From: Watersipora subatra
Lineage: Eukaryota; Bryozoa; Gymnolaemata; Cheilostomatida; Watersiporidae
DNA: 64,000 nucleotides
Assembly (NCBI RefSeq): GCF_963576615.1
Contig: NC_088708.1
Location: forward strand, 52,439,196 to 52,503,195
Reading direction: 5' to 3'
Under the pieces are notes generated by a model, which saw only the letters and a program-made list of their open reading frames with translations, was not told where the DNA came from and searched no databases. A program made the position numbers and the translations under genes. Positions 2,787 through 56,347 of the stretch are shown one piece after another; the stretch's first letter is position 1, and every line of letters starts with the position of its first letter.

Positions 2787-2824
2787 TAACAATCTGAAGT
2801 TTGTGTTTAGCCAAAGTTGTGTTA

Positions 2825-3549
2825 AGGTCCGGCCACACGTAACGAATTATTCGTTCAATCTGACCGAATCCACGAATTTCACAGAATTCACAGATCTATT
2901 CTGCCGAATATCATAGATTCGTCTGAGCTGTGCATGCACACCGAATTCATTACCGAAACGCGTTTAATTGGCTAACCAATTTTTTTAGCGAGCACGATTC
3001 TATTAGCTTTGACAAGTGATATAGTCCAAGACACGTACGACGACCCACAATAAAAGTTTCACCGCGATATGACTTGATACATACGACGCAACTGCCTATA
3101 TGCGCTATTGTTGGTTCTCTCTCGTTGGTTCACCATGACAGGAACTTCTCATCGTGTATCCAGAATTTTTTTTAGATATTTTAGAAGTTATGAATTATTT
3201 CTTTTTCAATAATAATAATTTCTTTTTATGCAGCAAAAGCTCCGTCACAAAAACAGTCGCTATCTCTAGCGCATATAGGCAGTTGCATCGTATGTATCAA
3301 GTCATATCACGGTGATACTTTTATTGTGTGTCGTCGTACGTGTCTTGGACTATATCACTTGTCAAAGCTAATAGAATCGTGCTCGCTAAAAAAATTGGTT
3401 AGCCAATTAAACGCGTTTCGGTAACGAATTCGGTGTGCATGCACAGCTCAGACGAATCTATGATATTCGGCAGAATAGATCTGTGAATTCTGTGAAATTC
3501 GTGGATTCGGTCAGATTGAACGAATAATTCGTTACGTGTGGCCGGACCT
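2825..3549. mobile_element. Long fold-back MITE with TTA target duplication (PIF/Harbinger-like)
   Basis: The 725-bp element is almost entirely an inverted repeat. The left arm begins AGGTCCGGCCACACGTAACG at 2825, and the right arm ends with its complement at 3549. The arms are roughly 290 bp, near-identical, and separated by about 150 bp of AT-rich sequence. A 3-bp direct repeat TTA flanks both ends (2822-2824 and 3550-3552). A 3-bp TTA/TAA duplication is typical of PIF/Harbinger elements, so a non-autonomous member is the likeliest class, but no transposase is present to confirm it. Short open frames inside are mirror images of each other and are not genes. Confidence 0.8.
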
Positions 3550-3552
3550 TTA

Positions 3553-4110
3553 CACACAACGACAGATGTTTGTATGTTCAAGTGTTGCATAACCAGTGAC
3601 TCTAGCTGTTTAATATTAGTCTTATTATTCTGATGCTGCCGAGTACAATCAGCAGCAAACATGGTGGCTTTGTTTAGTATCGCATCAAAGGCTGCCTCAG
3701 GTAATTAGCTGATCATCATTAATTAGTCTAGCTCTTGTCTTCCTCAGATATTCACCTAATCTAGACATACATGTACAGTAGGGTAATGGTTAGCATGAAA
3801 ATGATGCTGTGGCAGGCCATATATTAGCCTAGGCTAATTATGACGGCTGCTTTGAAATACAATGTGTACTCAGTCAACTCGAGACCTGTTATAGAATGAT
3901 CAGCCATAAAAAGTTATTGGTTTATTAGCATGAGGTATGCGTTGCTTTTGTATCCCACTCAATATTGCGTATTTACATCCTTAACAACTGTTGGCTGGCA
4001 AGCAAAACTAAACAAATATGCGTGCGCTTAAGCGCCAAGCTGGTCCATTTCGGAAATACAGTAACCGTCACACATGTCGTACACGCCAATAGAGTTTAAA
4101 GGTCTTGTAG
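3553..4110. other. Upstream region of the desaturase gene
   Basis: No gene is visible. CTTGTAG directly precedes the ATG at 4111, so a spliced 5' leader ending at 4110 is possible. The same TAG is an in-frame stop, which makes the ATG the first usable start. Confidence 0.4.
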
Positions 4111-23600: not shown

Positions 23601-26600
23601 ATCTAGTCATGTTCTCTCTATTGCCTTTTCAAGAGTTACAGGATGTTAGCTATGGTTGCTATGGTTGCCTTACAACCTTAAATATGGTGCTTGTAAGAAC
23701 ACATTGCTACCATTCACAAAATATACTGATAAGTCTTGTGTATATGACGGGCAGCTGTTTTGAGGGCTTGAGAACAACACCGTCCAGCTATACATGCTTG
23801 TTTGTACAAGCCTTATATCAGCCTTACAATAAAAACTGTCATTAATGATAAAACTTCTTCTGCAAAATTGTTTTTGGTTGCAGAATATACCGTGAGTTAA
23901 TTCTAGGGAAACAGCATACAATATCAAGCAGTGTGAGCATCGAAATATCATAAAAGATGGATACAAGCTGCTAAATACTAATATAAAAGAGAATAATATA
24001 ACTTGAGAGCAAACATAATCACTGTAACACAAAATAAGGCTTTAAACAAAAGACAGGAATGACACTAAAAAATATGAGGTGAAATAGATTTGCGACTGTT
24101 ATAGGTGATATTTTTGAACTGAAAGACAAAGTTTAAACCATAACTGTCATGTACAACTTTTATTGTATTTGCTAGGTAAATCAGACACGCTGATTCCGAT
24201 TTTGTACTCAAAATAAAGATTGGTCTACTAACCTTCAGAGTAATGAAGGCTTTTTTACAGCGTTTTCATATCGGTATCGAAAACAACACGATCGGCACAA
24301 CAAGCTCCGCCCATAAATGCGTGATGTAACCTAGCTTTTTAGGAACGAAAGTTAAGTAGGGATGTTTAGTCTGATTTAGAATGATAGAGATGGGTGTTTT
24401 AAAATCCATTATTATCTAATATCAGCTTTAAAAATAATTTCAGTCTTTTCTGAAAGGTATATAAGCTATTTAACATTGCATATTTTAAAAAGCGCGATAA
24501 CAACGCTAGCTTGTGATAAAACCACGCTTTTTGAACTCATTTTTCTTGGCATCCAGCCTATTTAAACATCATGTAACAAGCTACGAGTAATTTTAAATAG
24601 TTTATATACTTTTCATAAAAAACTGAGATTATTTTACAGGCTGGATTTCGATAATAATGGGTTTTAAGAAACCCATCTCTATTATTCTAAATCGGAGTAA
24701 TCTTCTCTAACTTCCGTTCCTGCAAAAGCTAGGTTTCGTCACATATTTATGGGCGGAGCATGTAATGATGGTTGTGTTGTCTTCGAGACGAATACTGAAA
24801 CGCTTTAAAAAAGCCTTAATGACTTTGAAGGTTAGTGGACCAATCCTTATTTTGAGTACAAAATCGGAATCAGCGTGTCCGATTTACCTAGTAGATACGA
24901 TAAAACTTGTACGTGACAGTTATGGTTTAAAAAGGCGGTAGTACGGCAGCCCACAGAGAGTCAAATTTTTACACACTTCTTTTCTTAAAAATGGCAAATT
25001 TTAAACAAGTTACAACCCTATAATTTCAATTTAAGCTCTGATTATTAGCACTTGAGAGCTTCTGCCATTGCATCAGTTTTTATGTTAAATATTATTTAGA
25101 AATCATTGAGCGCAACAACAATAGCTCTATTAAACGTTAAGTATTTGCAGATCATTTTAGGATTGAAGGCGTTACAATATTTACTTTAACATCTATTTAT
25201 TCCGAATTATGAAAATGGGTATAACACTCATATCACAATGTGCTAAAACACTAGCTCTACTAAACATCCACAAATTACCACATTACTCGTCAATTTGAAA
25301 CTTATAAGGAATATCTTTTGCTCACCCTCTTTGTCCAAACTGTAACTCTTTGTCCAATAATGTAAAGAACAAAACACCACGTTTATAGCACTGTAGCTAT
25401 GGTAACCATTGTCCCTAATAAATATGTCGTAGATGCCTGGCCCATATATGGGTAGGAAGTTAGAAACTTACAGGCCATGCATATTCTGTGATGATGTCAT
25501 GCAGCTTGTAGTAGTCATCGTTGTCCCTGTACTCTGACATAAAGTTTCTAGGAAACACCCTACAAGAGCACAAGATACAATGAACACTCCAAAGACTGAC
25601 AATAAGAGTTCCATGACCTCTTGGGCTCACTACAAAAGCGTGTTTATAAATAAAAGCTCCACAGGTTTTATAGTAGCGCATAATAAAAAAAGTCATGAAA
25701 GATTCACCAATCGTCCTTATATAGAAGAAAGCTAACCCCAATGTTGGCAGCCGCATTCTCAGAGATGAGTAATAAAGGCAGCATTATTTAGTTGTTATTA
25801 ATATGCAACTGGTATCATAAAAGGGTCTCATATATCATGTTTAGGGTAATCCGGTCGGGTTATCCGCAACTAAACCAGCTCTCCTATCGGCACTCTAGCG
25901 TGGATGAAGAGGGTGGCTAGCAATCCTGCAGGACTAAAAACGAAGCCTGGCAAAGAGCAGAAGAGCTCCTCCGCGAGCCAATGGCCAGCTAGCTGAAGAT
26001 GGTGTCTCAATAAAAACACCCAACAGAAGGCTATGGCAAACCACTATTAAAACCTGCCAAGAAATGTCATGGTTATAGGAAGTGGGGAGAACCATGATCG
26101 TCTACATACGACATGATACTTAGAGAGAGGGAGTGATCATAAACGACAAATTATTATAAAAGAGAAATTATAAAACTTTATGATTTGGTGTGTTTACCAG
26201 ATTTTTATGATTCAAGGATTAATCATATTAGCTCTTTCTACAAAGGTTCCCTCATTCTCTCGTACTAAAAATGAGCGCTATTCAAAGATTTCAGCTGTTT
26301 CCAGCCATAACTGACTTTATTCCTAGTTACTGTTGCCTTGTCAGTTTCATATAACAAACTTTAATTTAGCGTAATTTATATTTTAAGCTAAAAATTCATA
26401 CATCTGATCAATCAAAAATTTAAATAGTCTCAAAACATGAATCAAGAATAGATAGGCTAGCAACAGTGTAGTAATTGCCTACCAAAGACTTCGCTGTGAA
26501 CTTCAGGGATTTTTGCCACGACAATCATATCTAGTTACGAAATTTGAAATGGAGATGGTCTAACAAATATTTCTTCAATGAAATAACAACTCCAAAGAAG

Positions 26601-33470: not shown

Positions 33471-34293
33471 GAACTCTAATGCAACGATGTTTTATTGAAA
33501 GACTTGTAGGTCAGTGTGCTTATTCACCCACTTCGTAGATAAGAACAAATAAACGGCTCTATGGAGGAATAAAAGAAACAATGGGTCATGTATTTAAAAC
33601 TATTACTTACTTGACTACATATCACCACACCATTTCTGAGTAATGATGCCATTGCCATTAGAATAGATGCTGTTTTTGCGCAGTAGTATGCGATGTGTCG
33701 ACTATTACACGCTCAATGCGCTACTTGGAGCAAAACCAAATGTGCTAATACAAAAATAGATTTGTTTGACTCGATAAGCAAGACTCTGAGTCGAATACCC
33801 GGGAAGTCTTTTTGTAATGTATGTACATGTACCGTATGTATTTCTTCTTTCACCCCGTTCTATGGTTTACACCGGTGGGCTATTATCTCGGCGGCTTTGA
33901 ATGATCAAACGACTATAGCAAAAAGTAAACGTTTTGTATAAAACGTCATGTTACTGCATGCGAAGGTGTTTTACGAGTATCTTCTTTAATATACCAAAAG
34001 CTTTTTTGTGTACTGTGTCTTGAGTAGATGAATGCAAGTTTCTAGACTTCTAGATCTAGTATTGATGAGAAGAATGTATATCTTAGTTTAATCTATATAG
34101 AACAACGAGGAGTTTTTCATCGTGTCGAAGTGCTATCGGCCTGTTTCATCTGGATTCGGGTATCATTATCACTTTCCGTTAAATTGGCTGCCAATTACAA
34201 CGAATTAATGTCGAATGTAATTTCATTTACTATTGCTGCTCACAAAATATTACAGTAAACCGAATGTACGCCTAAAAAACGAAATAATTTAGA
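33471..34293. other. Intergenic, nothing recognised
   Basis: An 82-codon open frame at 33693-33941 has no recognisable domain. No repeat structure stands out. Confidence 0.35.
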
Positions 34294-36765
34294 ATTATGG
34301 ACGGTTGGGCGACAGTCAATAGGGCGACAGACACTTAGGCGACACTTTCGGTTCGAAAGGCGACAACTTCAGACGGAAGGGCGACACAGCGGACAAACAG
34401 GCGACAATTCTGGACATTGAGGCGACAATTCTGAGGGCAGGATTAATTCAAAATATTAAGTCCTGCTATGGCCTGTTATGTTGTTGTGAATTAGTAGTGA
34501 ACACTAACAAGACACCAACTTTATTGATGCCCAGATCGGAAATCTTGCATTAGCATACTTTGTACGCATTGCTCCACCTTATTTCCTTGGCATCTATTAC
34601 CTGCTTATATCCTCATTAATCTGATTACATTATTATTTTACACACAGTAGAGTTTCATATTGTATTAATGAATGTACCAAATATTTATTTAATTGAGATA
34701 GTTGTTATTTTAAAAAAACTGCGGAGATTAATCTGTCTTTAATCGCCCAACTATTCTTCTGTTCATCCTTTTCCACAAATTTAACTTTAGAGTCTGTCAA
34801 CACGCTCAGAAGTCATTTAGCCAGTCACTATTTTGGCCTATTTTCGTTTTCACTTCCTTCCTTGAATGCTTGGAAAAACTGGCAAGTTGCTTATCAGTGT
34901 GGCAAGAGTCGGAGATTCCTTACCACCTAATTTATGACATCATAGAGGTACCAACTTTTTCAACCCCTTTGAAGCGATGCATTCTTGATTCACTAGCATA
35001 CCGCTGTTGATGAGTCATTATACCACCTTTGGCTCATGTATCATGTATTAGGACCCTCAGTAGTAGCTTTCAAATTAATGTATATTCTTGTCCTAATTGC
35101 AGTATGAAAATGAATACATACATATGAGTTTAGCTTTATACATTTTAATAAATTTGCTTTTTGGTATATTTATACAAATAGTAAAGCTGATTTTTATCAT
35201 ATATAACTTCAAAAATACGTATATCAAGTTTGCAGCATTTTTTTTACAATGACTTAATACTGATTGATACTATGTAGATAAACCCATCTAGCGATAGAAC
35301 TTCTCTTTCCTATCTAGAATGACGAGATCAGGTTCACGGTTATAAATTGGCAACTGAATATTACTTTCTACCAATTCTAAAACTTACATAAAAAGATAAT
35401 TTGAATTACAGGAGTATAATTGTACACAGTGACTCGCAGGTGCTCGAATGCACTTGCACTTCCAATCATACACAAAAATAATTGCAGGAAATTCCCTACA
35501 CCACTATTTAATAAAGTTGTTATTAAAGTTCAAGCCAATGGCTGTCTATGTAATATCTTCCCATCTTTTCTGAAATCTGTCCTTTGTTAAAATAGTCGCA
35601 TATAAAAAAGATTCATAGTGCGTGTTAAAATGCAAAATATAGTATATGATGTGGTACATGGCAGCATTAACCTGCAACTGAGTATATATCACAAAGGTCT
35701 TTGAGGTGTTGATCACTCCTCATTGTCTCAAACTACAGGTTGTGTGTGCCATCGGGATCTGTGACAAGGGTAATTCGGTCAAATATCTCAAGTGACTCTA
35801 GGGTAACATGGCATCAGGACCAGTTGATTTCTATGCTTTGGAATGGATCATTTCTCCATAAGCTTTCTGTGATGCTGTTTAGTCTTCTTGCAACAAGCTG
35901 CAGAAGTTAGTAAAATATGGATATATCTTAGACACCTGTCAGAAAAAGCCTTCACTCTTCATACTCAAATAAAATCTCAACAAACATAGATCAGTGTGAA
36001 CCGCAATTTAGCCTATTGAGTCTGCATTATAATGACATTGAATTATTTTCATAATTGTAAAGAAACAAGGATAAGGAAATCATTATTTCCACAAGTAAAT
36101 GAGAAATTACAATAATAGGGAATTGTCTTTTCATCTCACACAAAGAGCAAACTCTTCTCCCAGCTACTGTGAATTTTGACAATCGAAACCATAAAACTAT
36201 TTCTTCTCGAGGTAAGATAACTCTAAGGTTTCAACAATCAGAGAAGGGATAACTCTAAAGTTTCAATAATCAGAGACAAGATTGTCGACAATTCAGCCGA
36301 GAACGTGACTTTTCGAACAGTTTTGAACAAACATGCTGATACAAAAACAAGTTTTGGTGTTTTAACTGAATAAGCTAGAGGCATTTTAAAAAAACTTTAA
36401 TATTTTGTTAATTGTCTGGGCTAGCATAATCAGAGAAATCCCAATCCCACCAATAGCGTTTAAAAATACATGTTGCAATTTCGATTTATAAAAAGGTCTG
36501 CAAAAAACAATAACACTTTCAAGGCTACGTTTCAAAAATATACGTAAGCATAGCACACAACGACAGCGTCTCATAGTTTGTCAGTACATTATTACCTTGC
36601 CTTCAACCAAACAGCAAACCAATTTGTCGCCTTTGAGTCTAGAATTGTCGCCGGTTTGTCTGCCGTGTCGCCTTTCCGTCTGAAGTTGTCGCCTTTCAAA
36701 CCAAAAGTGTCGCCTAAGTGTCTGTCGCCCTAGTGACTGTCGCCCAAAAGTCCAGTTACCATAAT
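34294..36765. mobile_element. 2.5-kb element with mirrored GGCGACA-array terminal repeats
   Basis: Both ends carry inverted repeats of about 140 bp. Each contains seven copies of GGCGACA, on the plus strand at 34308, 34323, 34338, 34359, 34380, 34400 and 34421, and as TGTCGCC at 36625, 36646, 36666, 36687, 36708, 36723 and 36738. Spacing from the outside inward is 15, 15, 21, 21, 20, 21 bp at both ends. The outer flanks share AATTATGG. The 2.2-kb interior is AT-rich without a recognisable transposase, so the element appears non-autonomous. Exact ends and target duplication are unclear. I know no named family with this layout. Confidence 0.75.
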
Positions 36766-36959
36766 TTAATGCGATAAATAAACAATCGGTAGTAATATTA
36801 TAACTAAAGATCATCTGCACTTTTATGGAAGGTTTTGCTAATGGTTTCATCACTTTGAAATAATTTTGTTCTGTGCAATTAGTTCTATCTTTTTTAGATT
36901 AGAGTAGATAGGAACTTTTGCTGGCCGAAAGCTATGATAAACTCAATCGAGTATTGATT

Positions 36960-37350: not shown

Positions 37351-38103
37351 GAGGCACCCTACTTGCATCTACTGATTTAGAGTGTCCTATCGTCCCAGAT
37401 GTATTCAGCGGTTTTGTTGAACATCTACAAGCCCAATCTATTGGTTATCTACAGATCAGCAAGTATCACAAATTTTCTTTATTTTTTTCACATAGGTTTT
37501 TATAATGCCAGTTTTTTGATGCTATATATAATTATTTGAATTATTATTAATTTTTTGGCTTTGCACCATTTAAACAAAATACACCATGTTCTTATAAGAA
37601 TATTGATTCTAATTGTTGGTTTTCTTTCGTGTACTCCCACAAGGTATAAAAAGGGGAACTTCTATTGTATTAAGAAAAAACAATTTTTTTACTTTCCTTC
37701 TCTTTTTTCTGCATTAAAATTGTTACACTACAGTTTTTCTGTAAGAGCGGTTATGAAATGGTTTCACGGAATTCTCTTACAGTTCTCGGAAAAAATGAGT
37801 TGTAATACACTGAGCTTCCTATTGCAGGTAAATAAAGACATTGTCTTGTATTATAAAAGTGATCAGCTTCATCAATACTAATATGTTCACGTTAAATAGA
37901 GTTTTTAGAGCACCCTTGGGTGGAAGTGGAAAACATTAATTATGTAAAATGTTTATTTCAAAATATGTATATCAGGAGTAGTCTTCAGTGTGACAATTTA
38001 GATCAAATCAAATATCAGGGAAGATTACCATTTTATGTCAGGTTTTGACTGTATCACTCTTCAGTTTTTATAGGTATTACCATTTCCATGCACCTTTTTC
38101 ATT
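37351..38103. other. Intergenic, nothing recognised
   Basis: AT-rich sequence with a 108-codon open frame (37555-37881) of low-complexity composition and no known motif. Confidence 0.35.
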
Positions 38104-38317
38104 AAACCATAACTGTCACGAACAACTCTTATCGTATTTACTAGGTAATTCAGACACGCTGATTCCAATTTTGTACTCAAAATAAAGATTAGTCCACTCA
38201 CTTTCAGAGTAATGAAGGCTTTTTTACAGCGTTTTAATATCGGTCTCGAAAACAACACAATCGGCACAACAAGCTCCGCCCATAAATACATGACGTAACC
38301 TAGCTTTTTAGGAACAG
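38104..38317. mobile_element. Single-arm copy of the 24136 fold-back family
   Basis: It begins AAACCATAACTGTCACG and follows the left arm of the 24136-24930 element, including ACACGCTGATTCCAATTTTG and GCTCCGCCCATAAAT, up to CTAGCTTTTTAGGAAC. Homology then stops abruptly, and no opposing arm is present. Confidence 0.85.
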
Positions 38318-38422
38318 AACATATGTTTTTGATTCAATGATTATATGTTTTTGATTCAATGATTATATGTTTTGATTCAATGATTATTTGTTTTTGATTC
38401 AATGATTATTTGTTTTGATAAT
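38318..38422. repeat. 22-23-bp minisatellite, about 5 copies
   Basis: Five tandem copies of TGATTCAATGATTAT joined by TGTTTT or TTGTTTTT. The array starts directly at the broken end of the single-arm fold-back copy. Confidence 0.9.
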
Positions 38423-53950: not shown

Positions 53951-53982
53951 CTACGTACAACCATTTTGAATAAAGTGGTACC

Positions 53983-56347
53983 ACAATTACATAGCGCAAT
54001 GACAGGCATACACAATTACATAGTGCATTGACAGGCATACACAATTACATAGCAAATGACAGACACACACAATTATATAGTGCAACGACAAGCATACACA
54101 ATTGCATAGTGCATTGAAGGCATACACAATTACATAGCAAATGACAGACACACACAATTATATAGTGCAACGACAGGCATACACAATTACATAGCGCAAT
54201 GACAGACACACACAATTACATAGTGCAATGACAGACACACAATTACATGGTGCAATGACAGACACACAATTACATGGTGCAATGACAGACATACACAATC
54301 ACATAGTGCAATGACAGGCATACACAATTACATAGTGCAATGACAGGCATACACAATTACATAGCGCAATGACCGGCATACACAATTACATAGTGCAATG
54401 ACAGGCATACACAATTACATAGCACAATGACAGGCATACACAATTACATAGTGCAATGACAGACACACACAATTATATAGTGCAATGACAGACACACAAT
54501 TAATTACATAGTGCAATGACAGACATACACAATTACATAGTGCAATGACAGGCATACACAATTACATAGCGCAATGACAGGCGACACAATTACATAGTGC
54601 AATGACAGACACACACAATTATATAGTGCAATGACAGACACACAATTACATAGCGGAATGACAGACACACACAATTACATAGCGCAATGATAGACACACA
54701 ATTACATAGCGCAATGACAGACACACAATTACATAGCGCAATGACAAACACACAATTACATAGTGCAATGACAGACGCACAATTACATAGCGCAATGACA
54801 AACACACAATTACATAGTACAATGACAGACGCACAATTACATAGCGCAATGACAGACACACAATTACATAGTGCAATGACAGACACACAATTACATAGCG
54901 CAATGACAGACGCACAATTACATAGCGCAATGACAGACACACAATTACATAGCGCAATGACAGACACACAATTACATAGCGCAATGACAGACACACAATT
55001 ACATAGTGCAATGACAGACGCACAATTACATAGCGCAATGACAAACACACAATTACATAGTACAATGACAGACGCACAATTACATAGCGCAATGACAGAC
55101 ACACAATTACATAGTGCAATGACAGACACACAATTACATAGCGCAATGACAGACACACAATTACATAGCGCAATGACAAACACACAATTACATTGTACAA
55201 TGACAGACGCACAATTACATAGCGCAATGACAGACACACAATTACATAGCGCAATGACAGACACACAATTACATAGTGCAATGACAGGCACACAATTACA
55301 TAGTACAATGACAGACGCACAATTACATGGTGCAATGACAGACACACAATTACATGGTGCAATGACAGACGCACAATTACATAGCGCAATGACAGGCACA
55401 CAATTACATAGTGCAATGACAGACACACAATTACATAGCGCAATGACAAACACACAATTACATAGCGCAATGACAGACGCACAATTACATAGCGCAATGA
55501 CAGGCACACAATTACATAGTACAATGACAGACGCACAATTACATGGTGCAATGACAGACACACAATTACATGGTGCAATGACAGACGCACAATTACATAG
55601 CGCAATGACAGGCACACAATTACATAGTGCAATGACAGACACACAATTACATAGCGCAATGACAAACACACAATTACATAGCGCAATGACAGACACACAA
55701 TTACATAGCGCAATGACAAACACACAATTACATTGTACAATGACAGACACACAATTACATAGCGCAATGACAGGCACACAATTACATAGTGCAATGACAG
55801 ACACACAATTACATTGTGCAATGACAGACACACAATTACATAGCGCAATGACAGACACACAATTACATGGTGCAATGACAGACACACAATTACATAGCGC
55901 AATGACAGACACACAATTACATAGCGCAATGACAAACACACAATTACATAGCGCAATGACAGACACACAATTACATAGCGCAATGACAAACACACAATTA
56001 CATAGCGCAATGACAGACACACAATTACATAGCGCAATGACAAACACACAATTACATTGTACAATGACAGACACACAATTACATAGCGCAATGACAGGCA
56101 CACAATTACATAGTGCAATGACAGACACACAATTACATAGTGCAATGACAGACACACAATTACATAGCGCAATGACAGACACACAATTACATGGTGCAAT
56201 GACAGACACACAATTACATAGTGCAATGACAGGCGACACAATTACATAGTGCAATGACAGGCACACAATTACGTAGTGCAATGACAGACACACAATTACA
56301 TGGTGCAATGACAGACACACAATTACATAGTGCAATGACAGGCGTAC
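53983..56347. repeat. 27-bp minisatellite, about 2.36 kb, abutting the NitFhit start
   Basis: Some 85 units carry CAATTACATAGYGCAATGAC followed by AGACACA, GGCACACA or AAACACA variants. Early units are 24-29 bp and less regular; from about 54687 the period is a steady 27 bp. It begins 33 bp upstream of the NitFhit ATG. Both strands stay open for more than 500 codons because 27 is divisible by 3. These frames have no start context, splice sites or domains, and are not genes. An eight-unit (216-bp) higher-order block occurs twice, near 55290 and 55500. Confidence 0.97.

Follow-up and report, generated by a model that had tools for sequence, protein, structure and literature searches.

Mirrored GGCGACA arrays mark the ends of a non-autonomous DNA transposon family in Watersipora subatra, probably a Phantom-type Mutator-like element

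Two facing arrays of the short word GGCGACA in the genome of the bryozoan Watersipora subatra raise the question of whether the DNA that they enclose is a mobile element and, if so, which kind of transposase moves it. In the window, by which we mean the whole 64-kb stretch of DNA that was analysed, GGCGACA has 17 matches against 2.0 expected (maximum among 100 shuffles, 5), and 14 of these 17 words form two mirrored arrays, seven per element end. Word positions on both strands confirm the layout described in the initial annotation, with the words of both ends in mirror orientation and spaced 15, 15, 21, 21, 20, and 21 bp from the outside in. The spacing of two helical turns proposed there holds for four of the six intervals but not for the two outermost, in which 15 bp corresponds to ~1.4 turns. 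The two arms, 34298-34428 and 36624-36754, share 89% complementarity along their 131 nt. When the 120-bp array is compared between left and right arm, 12 columns differ, 12 of them among the 71 linker columns and 0 among the 49 word columns (P = 0.0012 if mismatches were evenly spread), which bears out the earlier impression that the words were kept while the linkers diverged; dropping the last, most diverged linker leaves 7 arm mismatches (P = 0.018). Units 6 and 7 of the array resemble tandem duplicates of each other.

The ends of the element are fixed by a direct repeat, ATAATTTA, found exactly 16 bp beyond the outermost GGCGACA word on both sides, together with the borders of 20 other copies described below. 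They place the element at 34292-36760 (2469 bp), correcting the borders of 34294 and 36765 given at first. Among random flank pairs, chance repeats of at least 8 bp were seen in 5/2000 when strictly symmetric, in 21/2000 at an offset of up to 2, and in 12/500 at an offset of up to 12. A different end, given by the terminal extension AATTATGG with a 7-bp gap, was discarded: each of the 20 fetched copies begins with GAATTATGG directly after the duplication. The parts of the element are:

34292-36760, plus strand: non-autonomous transposable element, 2469 bp, both borders common to 20/20 further copies
34284-34291, unstranded: left copy of the target-site duplication ATAATTTA (8 bp), identical to 36761-36768
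36761-36768, unstranded: right copy of the target-site duplication ATAATTTA, identical to the left copy
34292-34298, plus strand: left 7-bp tip GAATTAT, unlike the right tip
34299-34302, plus strand: GGAC, first half-site, adjoining the left tip
34308-34427, plus strand: left array, seven GGCGACA words starting at 34308, 34323, 34338, 34359, 34380, 34400, and 34421
34428-36624, unstranded: interior, no coding capacity found
36625-36744, minus strand: right array, seven GGCGACA words at 36738, 36723, 36708, 36687, 36666, 36646, and 36625
36750-36753, minus strand: GGAC, half-site, adjoining the right tip
36754-36760, minus strand: right 7-bp tip GGTAACT

The initial annotation had proposed searching the genome with the element end for other copies, and this search was carried out on 783.7 Mb in 239 contigs. 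With the 147-bp left end as query, 348 candidates were obtained; 40 were scored (the window's own end included), all of them 99-100% identical, and 20 of the 39 other scored matches were fetched. A pattern built on words 2-3 and allowing at most one mismatch gave 238 matches, compared with 0 for the reversed control. Among the 100 listed of these 238 matches, 62 form 31 plus/minus pairs, 27 of which are 2.2-2.5 kb apart, most of these 27 being assigned to the family by length alone. The fetched copies are 2380-2477 bp long, except for one copy of 598 bp, and share the same two borders in 20/20. Perfect duplications flank 21/21 copies including that in the window; they measure 8 bp in 12 copies and 9 bp in 9 and have no sequence in common. 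Because the fetched copies have identical borders and are all flanked by these duplications, the feature is a mobile, non-autonomous DNA transposon family, and its ends coincide with the arrays, as had been suspected from the window. Full-length copies are mutually 94.0-99.7% identical, a same-flank pair at 99.9% being left out, and the family has therefore spread over some time. The copy pairs L215/L228 (G000:C78, 169555 and 520452) and L220/L221 (G000:C6, 53.46 and 53.98 Mb) share their flanks and for this reason probably reflect duplication of a segment or in the assembly rather than independent insertion events; without the two same-flank copies, the duplication is 8 bp long in 11/19 and 9 bp in 8/19.

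Neither frames nor a Pfam search revealed a recognised coding sequence inside the element, in line with the initial annotation, which had seen no transposase there. The interior of the window copy has no stop-to-stop frame longer than 92 aa, and a 105-aa frame that overlaps the element runs past its right border. The longest frame across the 21 copies is 122 aa, and 10 frames of the window copy gave no Pfam match above the cut-off. Of 38 unpaired ends among the 100 listed, 31 were inspected 0.2-0.8 kb inwards and 30 match the family interior, one over only 94/201 bases and one with shifted coordinates like those of a deletion form; the remaining end belongs to the 241-bp form described below. 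Four long plus/minus pairs (3.9-7.0 kb) were considered as transposase-bearing copies and rejected, since each is a family copy that has gained other sequence. One contains a retrotransposon (reverse transcriptase, RNase H, and integrase domains), another a tandem repeat, and two unidentified sequence. A 241-bp form is little more than two partly decayed arrays with four exact words per side, and its flanking repeat agrees at 7/9 bases by eye. Judging by the 598-bp and 241-bp deletion forms, movement may require no more than the ends.

The window contains other repeats as well. A near-palindrome of ~740 bp (2818-3556, 87% self-complementary) resembles another foldback or MITE-type element, and a second of 800 bp (24132-24931, 78%) has a related 214-219-bp piece at 38102-38319 (85-92%). 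A tandem array of 2.4 kb (53982-56341) consists of ~86 copies of a 27-bp unit and is open in several frames. Genes of the window match the fatty-acid desaturase, actin, protein kinase, and reverse transcriptase families.

The outermost 7 bp of the element differ between its ends, with GAATTAT at the left and GGTAACT at the right, in the window and in 20/20 fetched copies. The left tip is exact in 10/12 further left ends, with one base changed in the other 2, and the right tip in 8/8 further right ends; GGAC stands next to the tip in 9/12 and 8/8 of these ends, respectively. The trinucleotide GAC, always after A or G, lies 5 bp upstream of the word in 5/7 units per arm, a number reached by 0/5000 linker shuffles in either arm; at word 3, the preceding A belongs to word 2, as its last base. 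As the arms copy one another and units 6 and 7 are alike, this recurrence does not represent seven independent events. Within the 21-bp unit, GAC steps are 11 and 10 bp apart, or about one helical turn. Composed of tip, GGAC, and seven-word array, the ends are thus several-domain inverted ends with short internal repeats, as in Foldback-type elements.

The MULE domain PF10551 has 51 matches in the same genome. We fetched 13 loci (L259-L271) of 3.5-5.5 kb each around 13 of the 51 matches and found no GGCGACA array within the fetched sequence; arrays further out would escape a span of this length, above all at L259, L260, L261, and L267, where introns apparently split the MULE exons. No copy pairing GGCGACA ends with a transposase was found among 100 of the 238 ends and 13 of the 51 MULE matches. 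Arrays of a roughly 15-bp unit of the CCCCCTGGC type are present in eight loci (L262-L266, L268, L269, and L271) and are one-sided in L263 and L264. The tandem-repeat search, which covered the loci other than L260, found no such array in L259, L261, or L267; in L261 it gave a 13-bp unit present 2.2 times. At L270 (G000:C9:46198900-46202400), the MULE match lies near inverted 14-bp repeats of the TTCGAGAATTTGCA type, possibly a further array-ended family.

In L262 (1118-3242, G000:C8), mirrored 15-bp arrays enclose a 473-aa frame in which Pfam recognises FLYWCH and MULE domains; the tips of this element are GGTATC and GGTTTT, and its duplication measures 8 bp. In a duplication test of seven MULE loci, five of which have both ends, L262, L268, and L271 proved to be flanked by 8-9-bp repeats, the best duplication of L268 and L271 requiring tips of unequal length. 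The tips of these three elements are unequal, GGTATC at one end and GGTTTT or GGTTCT at the other. L265 has a GGTATC tip but no duplication, and L269 has neither. GGTATC differs from the GGTAAC of the GGCGACA element in one base of six, a short likeness that was recognised post hoc. L262, L265, L268, and L271 resemble the GGCGACA element in their mirrored arrays, unlike tips, and, in 3/4, 8-9-bp duplications; they differ from it in their word (a CACTTACCCCCTGGC-type unit) and in carrying transposase sequence. Their outer array units are 1.8-2.4 kb apart, and their transposase frames comprise the one open frame of 473 aa in L262 and shorter ones in L265, L268, and L271, with FLYWCH confirmed only in L262. 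As judged from their sequences, the array-bearing MULE elements share the architecture of the GGCGACA element, with another word.

On these findings, the GGCGACA element is a non-autonomous cut-and-paste DNA transposon, most likely of the Mutator superfamily and of the Phantom (FLYWCH+MULE) type, the best match and one that was absent from the candidate list of the initial annotation. We infer the superfamily, rather than regard it as proven, because the part of the genome examined yielded no GGCGACA-ended copy with a transposase. The enzyme, most likely a MULE, would be supplied, at present or in the past, from another place in the genome. It would bind the seven GGCGACA words of each end, in keeping with the multimeric binding sites proposed in the initial annotation, and probably also the RGAC half-site one turn upstream. 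It would then bring the two element ends together and cut at the 7-bp tips, and insertion would follow at breaks staggered by 8 or 9 bp.

A mover from a different superfamily with duplications of 8-9 bp is unlikely; the foremost candidate would be Merlin, with hAT or P as others if their cutting were imprecise. Merlin elements make 8-9-bp duplications and encode an IS1016-type transposase, P elements and Galileo make 8-bp duplications and encode a THAP-domain transposase, and hAT elements usually make 8-bp duplications. Duplication length alone is compatible with Merlin, hAT, and P, and the lack of a transposase-bearing GGCGACA-ended copy among the ends and MULE loci examined leaves room for such a mover. 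The observed lengths fit Merlin; the 9-bp duplications in 9/21 copies speak against P element and Galileo, and the nearly equal use of 8 and 9 bp (11/19 and 8/19) departs from the usual 8 bp of hAT and the 8 bp of P. Foldback-like ends arose independently in several superfamilies, for example in Galileo with its P transposase, according to the excerpted text of PMC3169594; however, 7-bp tips that differ between the ends and lie beyond the inverted region are shared with Tm1, as far as its excerpted description goes, and with the array-bearing MULE elements of this genome.

A somewhat weaker contender, and an improbable one, is that the element carries the arrays mainly as sites for host factors or regulation, the transposase requiring only the tips. 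The equal number, spacing, and orientation of the words at both ends would instead be expected of sites that serve end joining. Right-end words in the 19 copies are exact at all seven positions in 14 copies and at six in the other 5, which also argues against the host-site reading; counted per site-copy, they carry 5/931 substitutions compared with 47/1349 in the linkers (permutation P 0.018), the interior rate being 0.024. In 8 further right ends, 3/273 word positions and 31/489 linker positions are changed. At 12 further left ends, by contrast, words (23/418) and linkers (46/744) vary about alike, giving no selection signal and agreeing with host sites; this count covers words 1 and 4-7, words 2-3 being left out since these two had served to select the ends. 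The left ends of the 19-copy set are unusable for this comparison because the set was chosen for identity. Since right ends show a signal and the 12 further left ends do not, the evidence for selection on the words is partial.

We find it comparably doubtful that the ends form a two-part code of RGAC half-site, 5 bp, and GGCGACA, read by a transposase of an unrecognised or very divergent lineage whose filament or multimer would count sites and tell left from right. Such a code would take in the GAC steps every ~10-11 bp in the 21-bp units, the two tighter 15-bp steps, and the two unlike tips. A chance or satellite-like array in place of a mobile element, which the similarity of units 6 and 7 might recall, is refuted by the copies, whose perfect 8- or 9-bp duplications at 21/21 go with identical borders, and no shuffle of the window yielded more than 5 words.

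With the Phantom-type reading preferred, the outcome is, apart from the clear words, an ordinary one: the feature is a transposon. It adds a family with unusually clear putative binding-site words, seven per end in a fixed register, with unlike tips, and therefore lends itself to studies of repeated-site recognition by Mutator/Phantom transposases. The same holds for the question of why left and right tips differ, a point left unexplained in the excerpted literature on related families. Several array-ended families with different words stand side by side in this one genome.

None of the titles listed by a literature search for the word GGCGACA describes such an element. Scanning plasmids for the word-array pattern gave no match. 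Pattern matches in viral contigs (43 and 47 stretches) and in bacteria and archaea (at least 117 stretches) were rejected, as those looked at are tandem words resembling coding repeats or unrelated arrays; none of 206 loci compared has more than 4/7 words at the right offsets.

Comparison with described superfamilies sets IS3EU aside. As described for fungal families, IS3EU elements make 6-bp duplications and have the ends TAYGG..CCRTA; membership is ruled out by the 8-9-bp duplications and the ends GAATTAT..AGTTACC. Within KDZ (Kyakuja/Dileera/Zisupton), Zisupton and Dileera make 8-bp duplications, and the described Kyakuja families make 7-bp duplications and have no inverted ends; the GGCGACA copies have inverted ends and duplications of 8 bp in 12/21, 9 bp in 9/21, and 7 bp in 0. 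The TU elements of sea urchins have 15-bp repeats in the outer part of their inverted ends and 8-bp duplications; their ends are much longer than those of the GGCGACA element. In the excerpted text of PMC4079207, which names the sea urchin among Foldback hosts, Tetris of Drosophila virilis is a non-autonomous Foldback element whose ends contain internal repeats and whose duplications measure 8-10 bp, and it differs from the GGCGACA element in its 220-bp repeats and ends of up to 1.7 kb.

The closest agreement is with the Phantom group, for which partial descriptions list 8-10-bp duplications and to which they assign the Muta elements. The duplications of the GGCGACA element, 8 bp in 12/21 and 9 bp in 9/21 and of no fixed sequence, lie within this range, and the element has the non-inverted 7-bp tips seen in Tm1 but not universal in Phantom. 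In the excerpted account (PMC5225508), Muta1 of Aedes aegypti has duplications of 8 or 9 bp, ends of 145 bp that contain nine subterminal repeats of 12 bp, and more than 300 putative non-autonomous derivatives. Duplication length and short subterminal repeats are thus shared with the GGCGACA element, from which Muta1 differs in its 3-4-bp spacers, its 10-bp terminal motif, and a known active transposase-bearing copy (PMC5225508). Tm1, a Mutator/Foldback family of root-knot nematodes, has asymmetric 7-bp end motifs followed by GGA and short repeats, makes 8-10-bp duplications, has ends that average 93% identity, and is mostly non-autonomous; one member, placed in Phantom, codes for a MULE transposase and has a FLYWCH finger without one histidine (all from excerpts of PMC3169594). 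Like the GGCGACA element, it combines unlike 7-bp tips outside repeat-bearing inverted ends with duplications in the 8-bp range. According to the same excerpts, Tm1 carries 1-9 tandem copies of a 13-15-bp unit, CGATTCAGTATCCGC, whereas the GGCGACA element has 7-bp words at 15/20/21 spacing, seven per end in most copies, and GGAC instead of GGA. Because its anatomy agrees with the descriptions of Tm1, Muta1, and Phantom, we file the GGCGACA element as a probable Phantom-type Mutator-like element, and thus probably as a new, non-autonomous family of a known kind.
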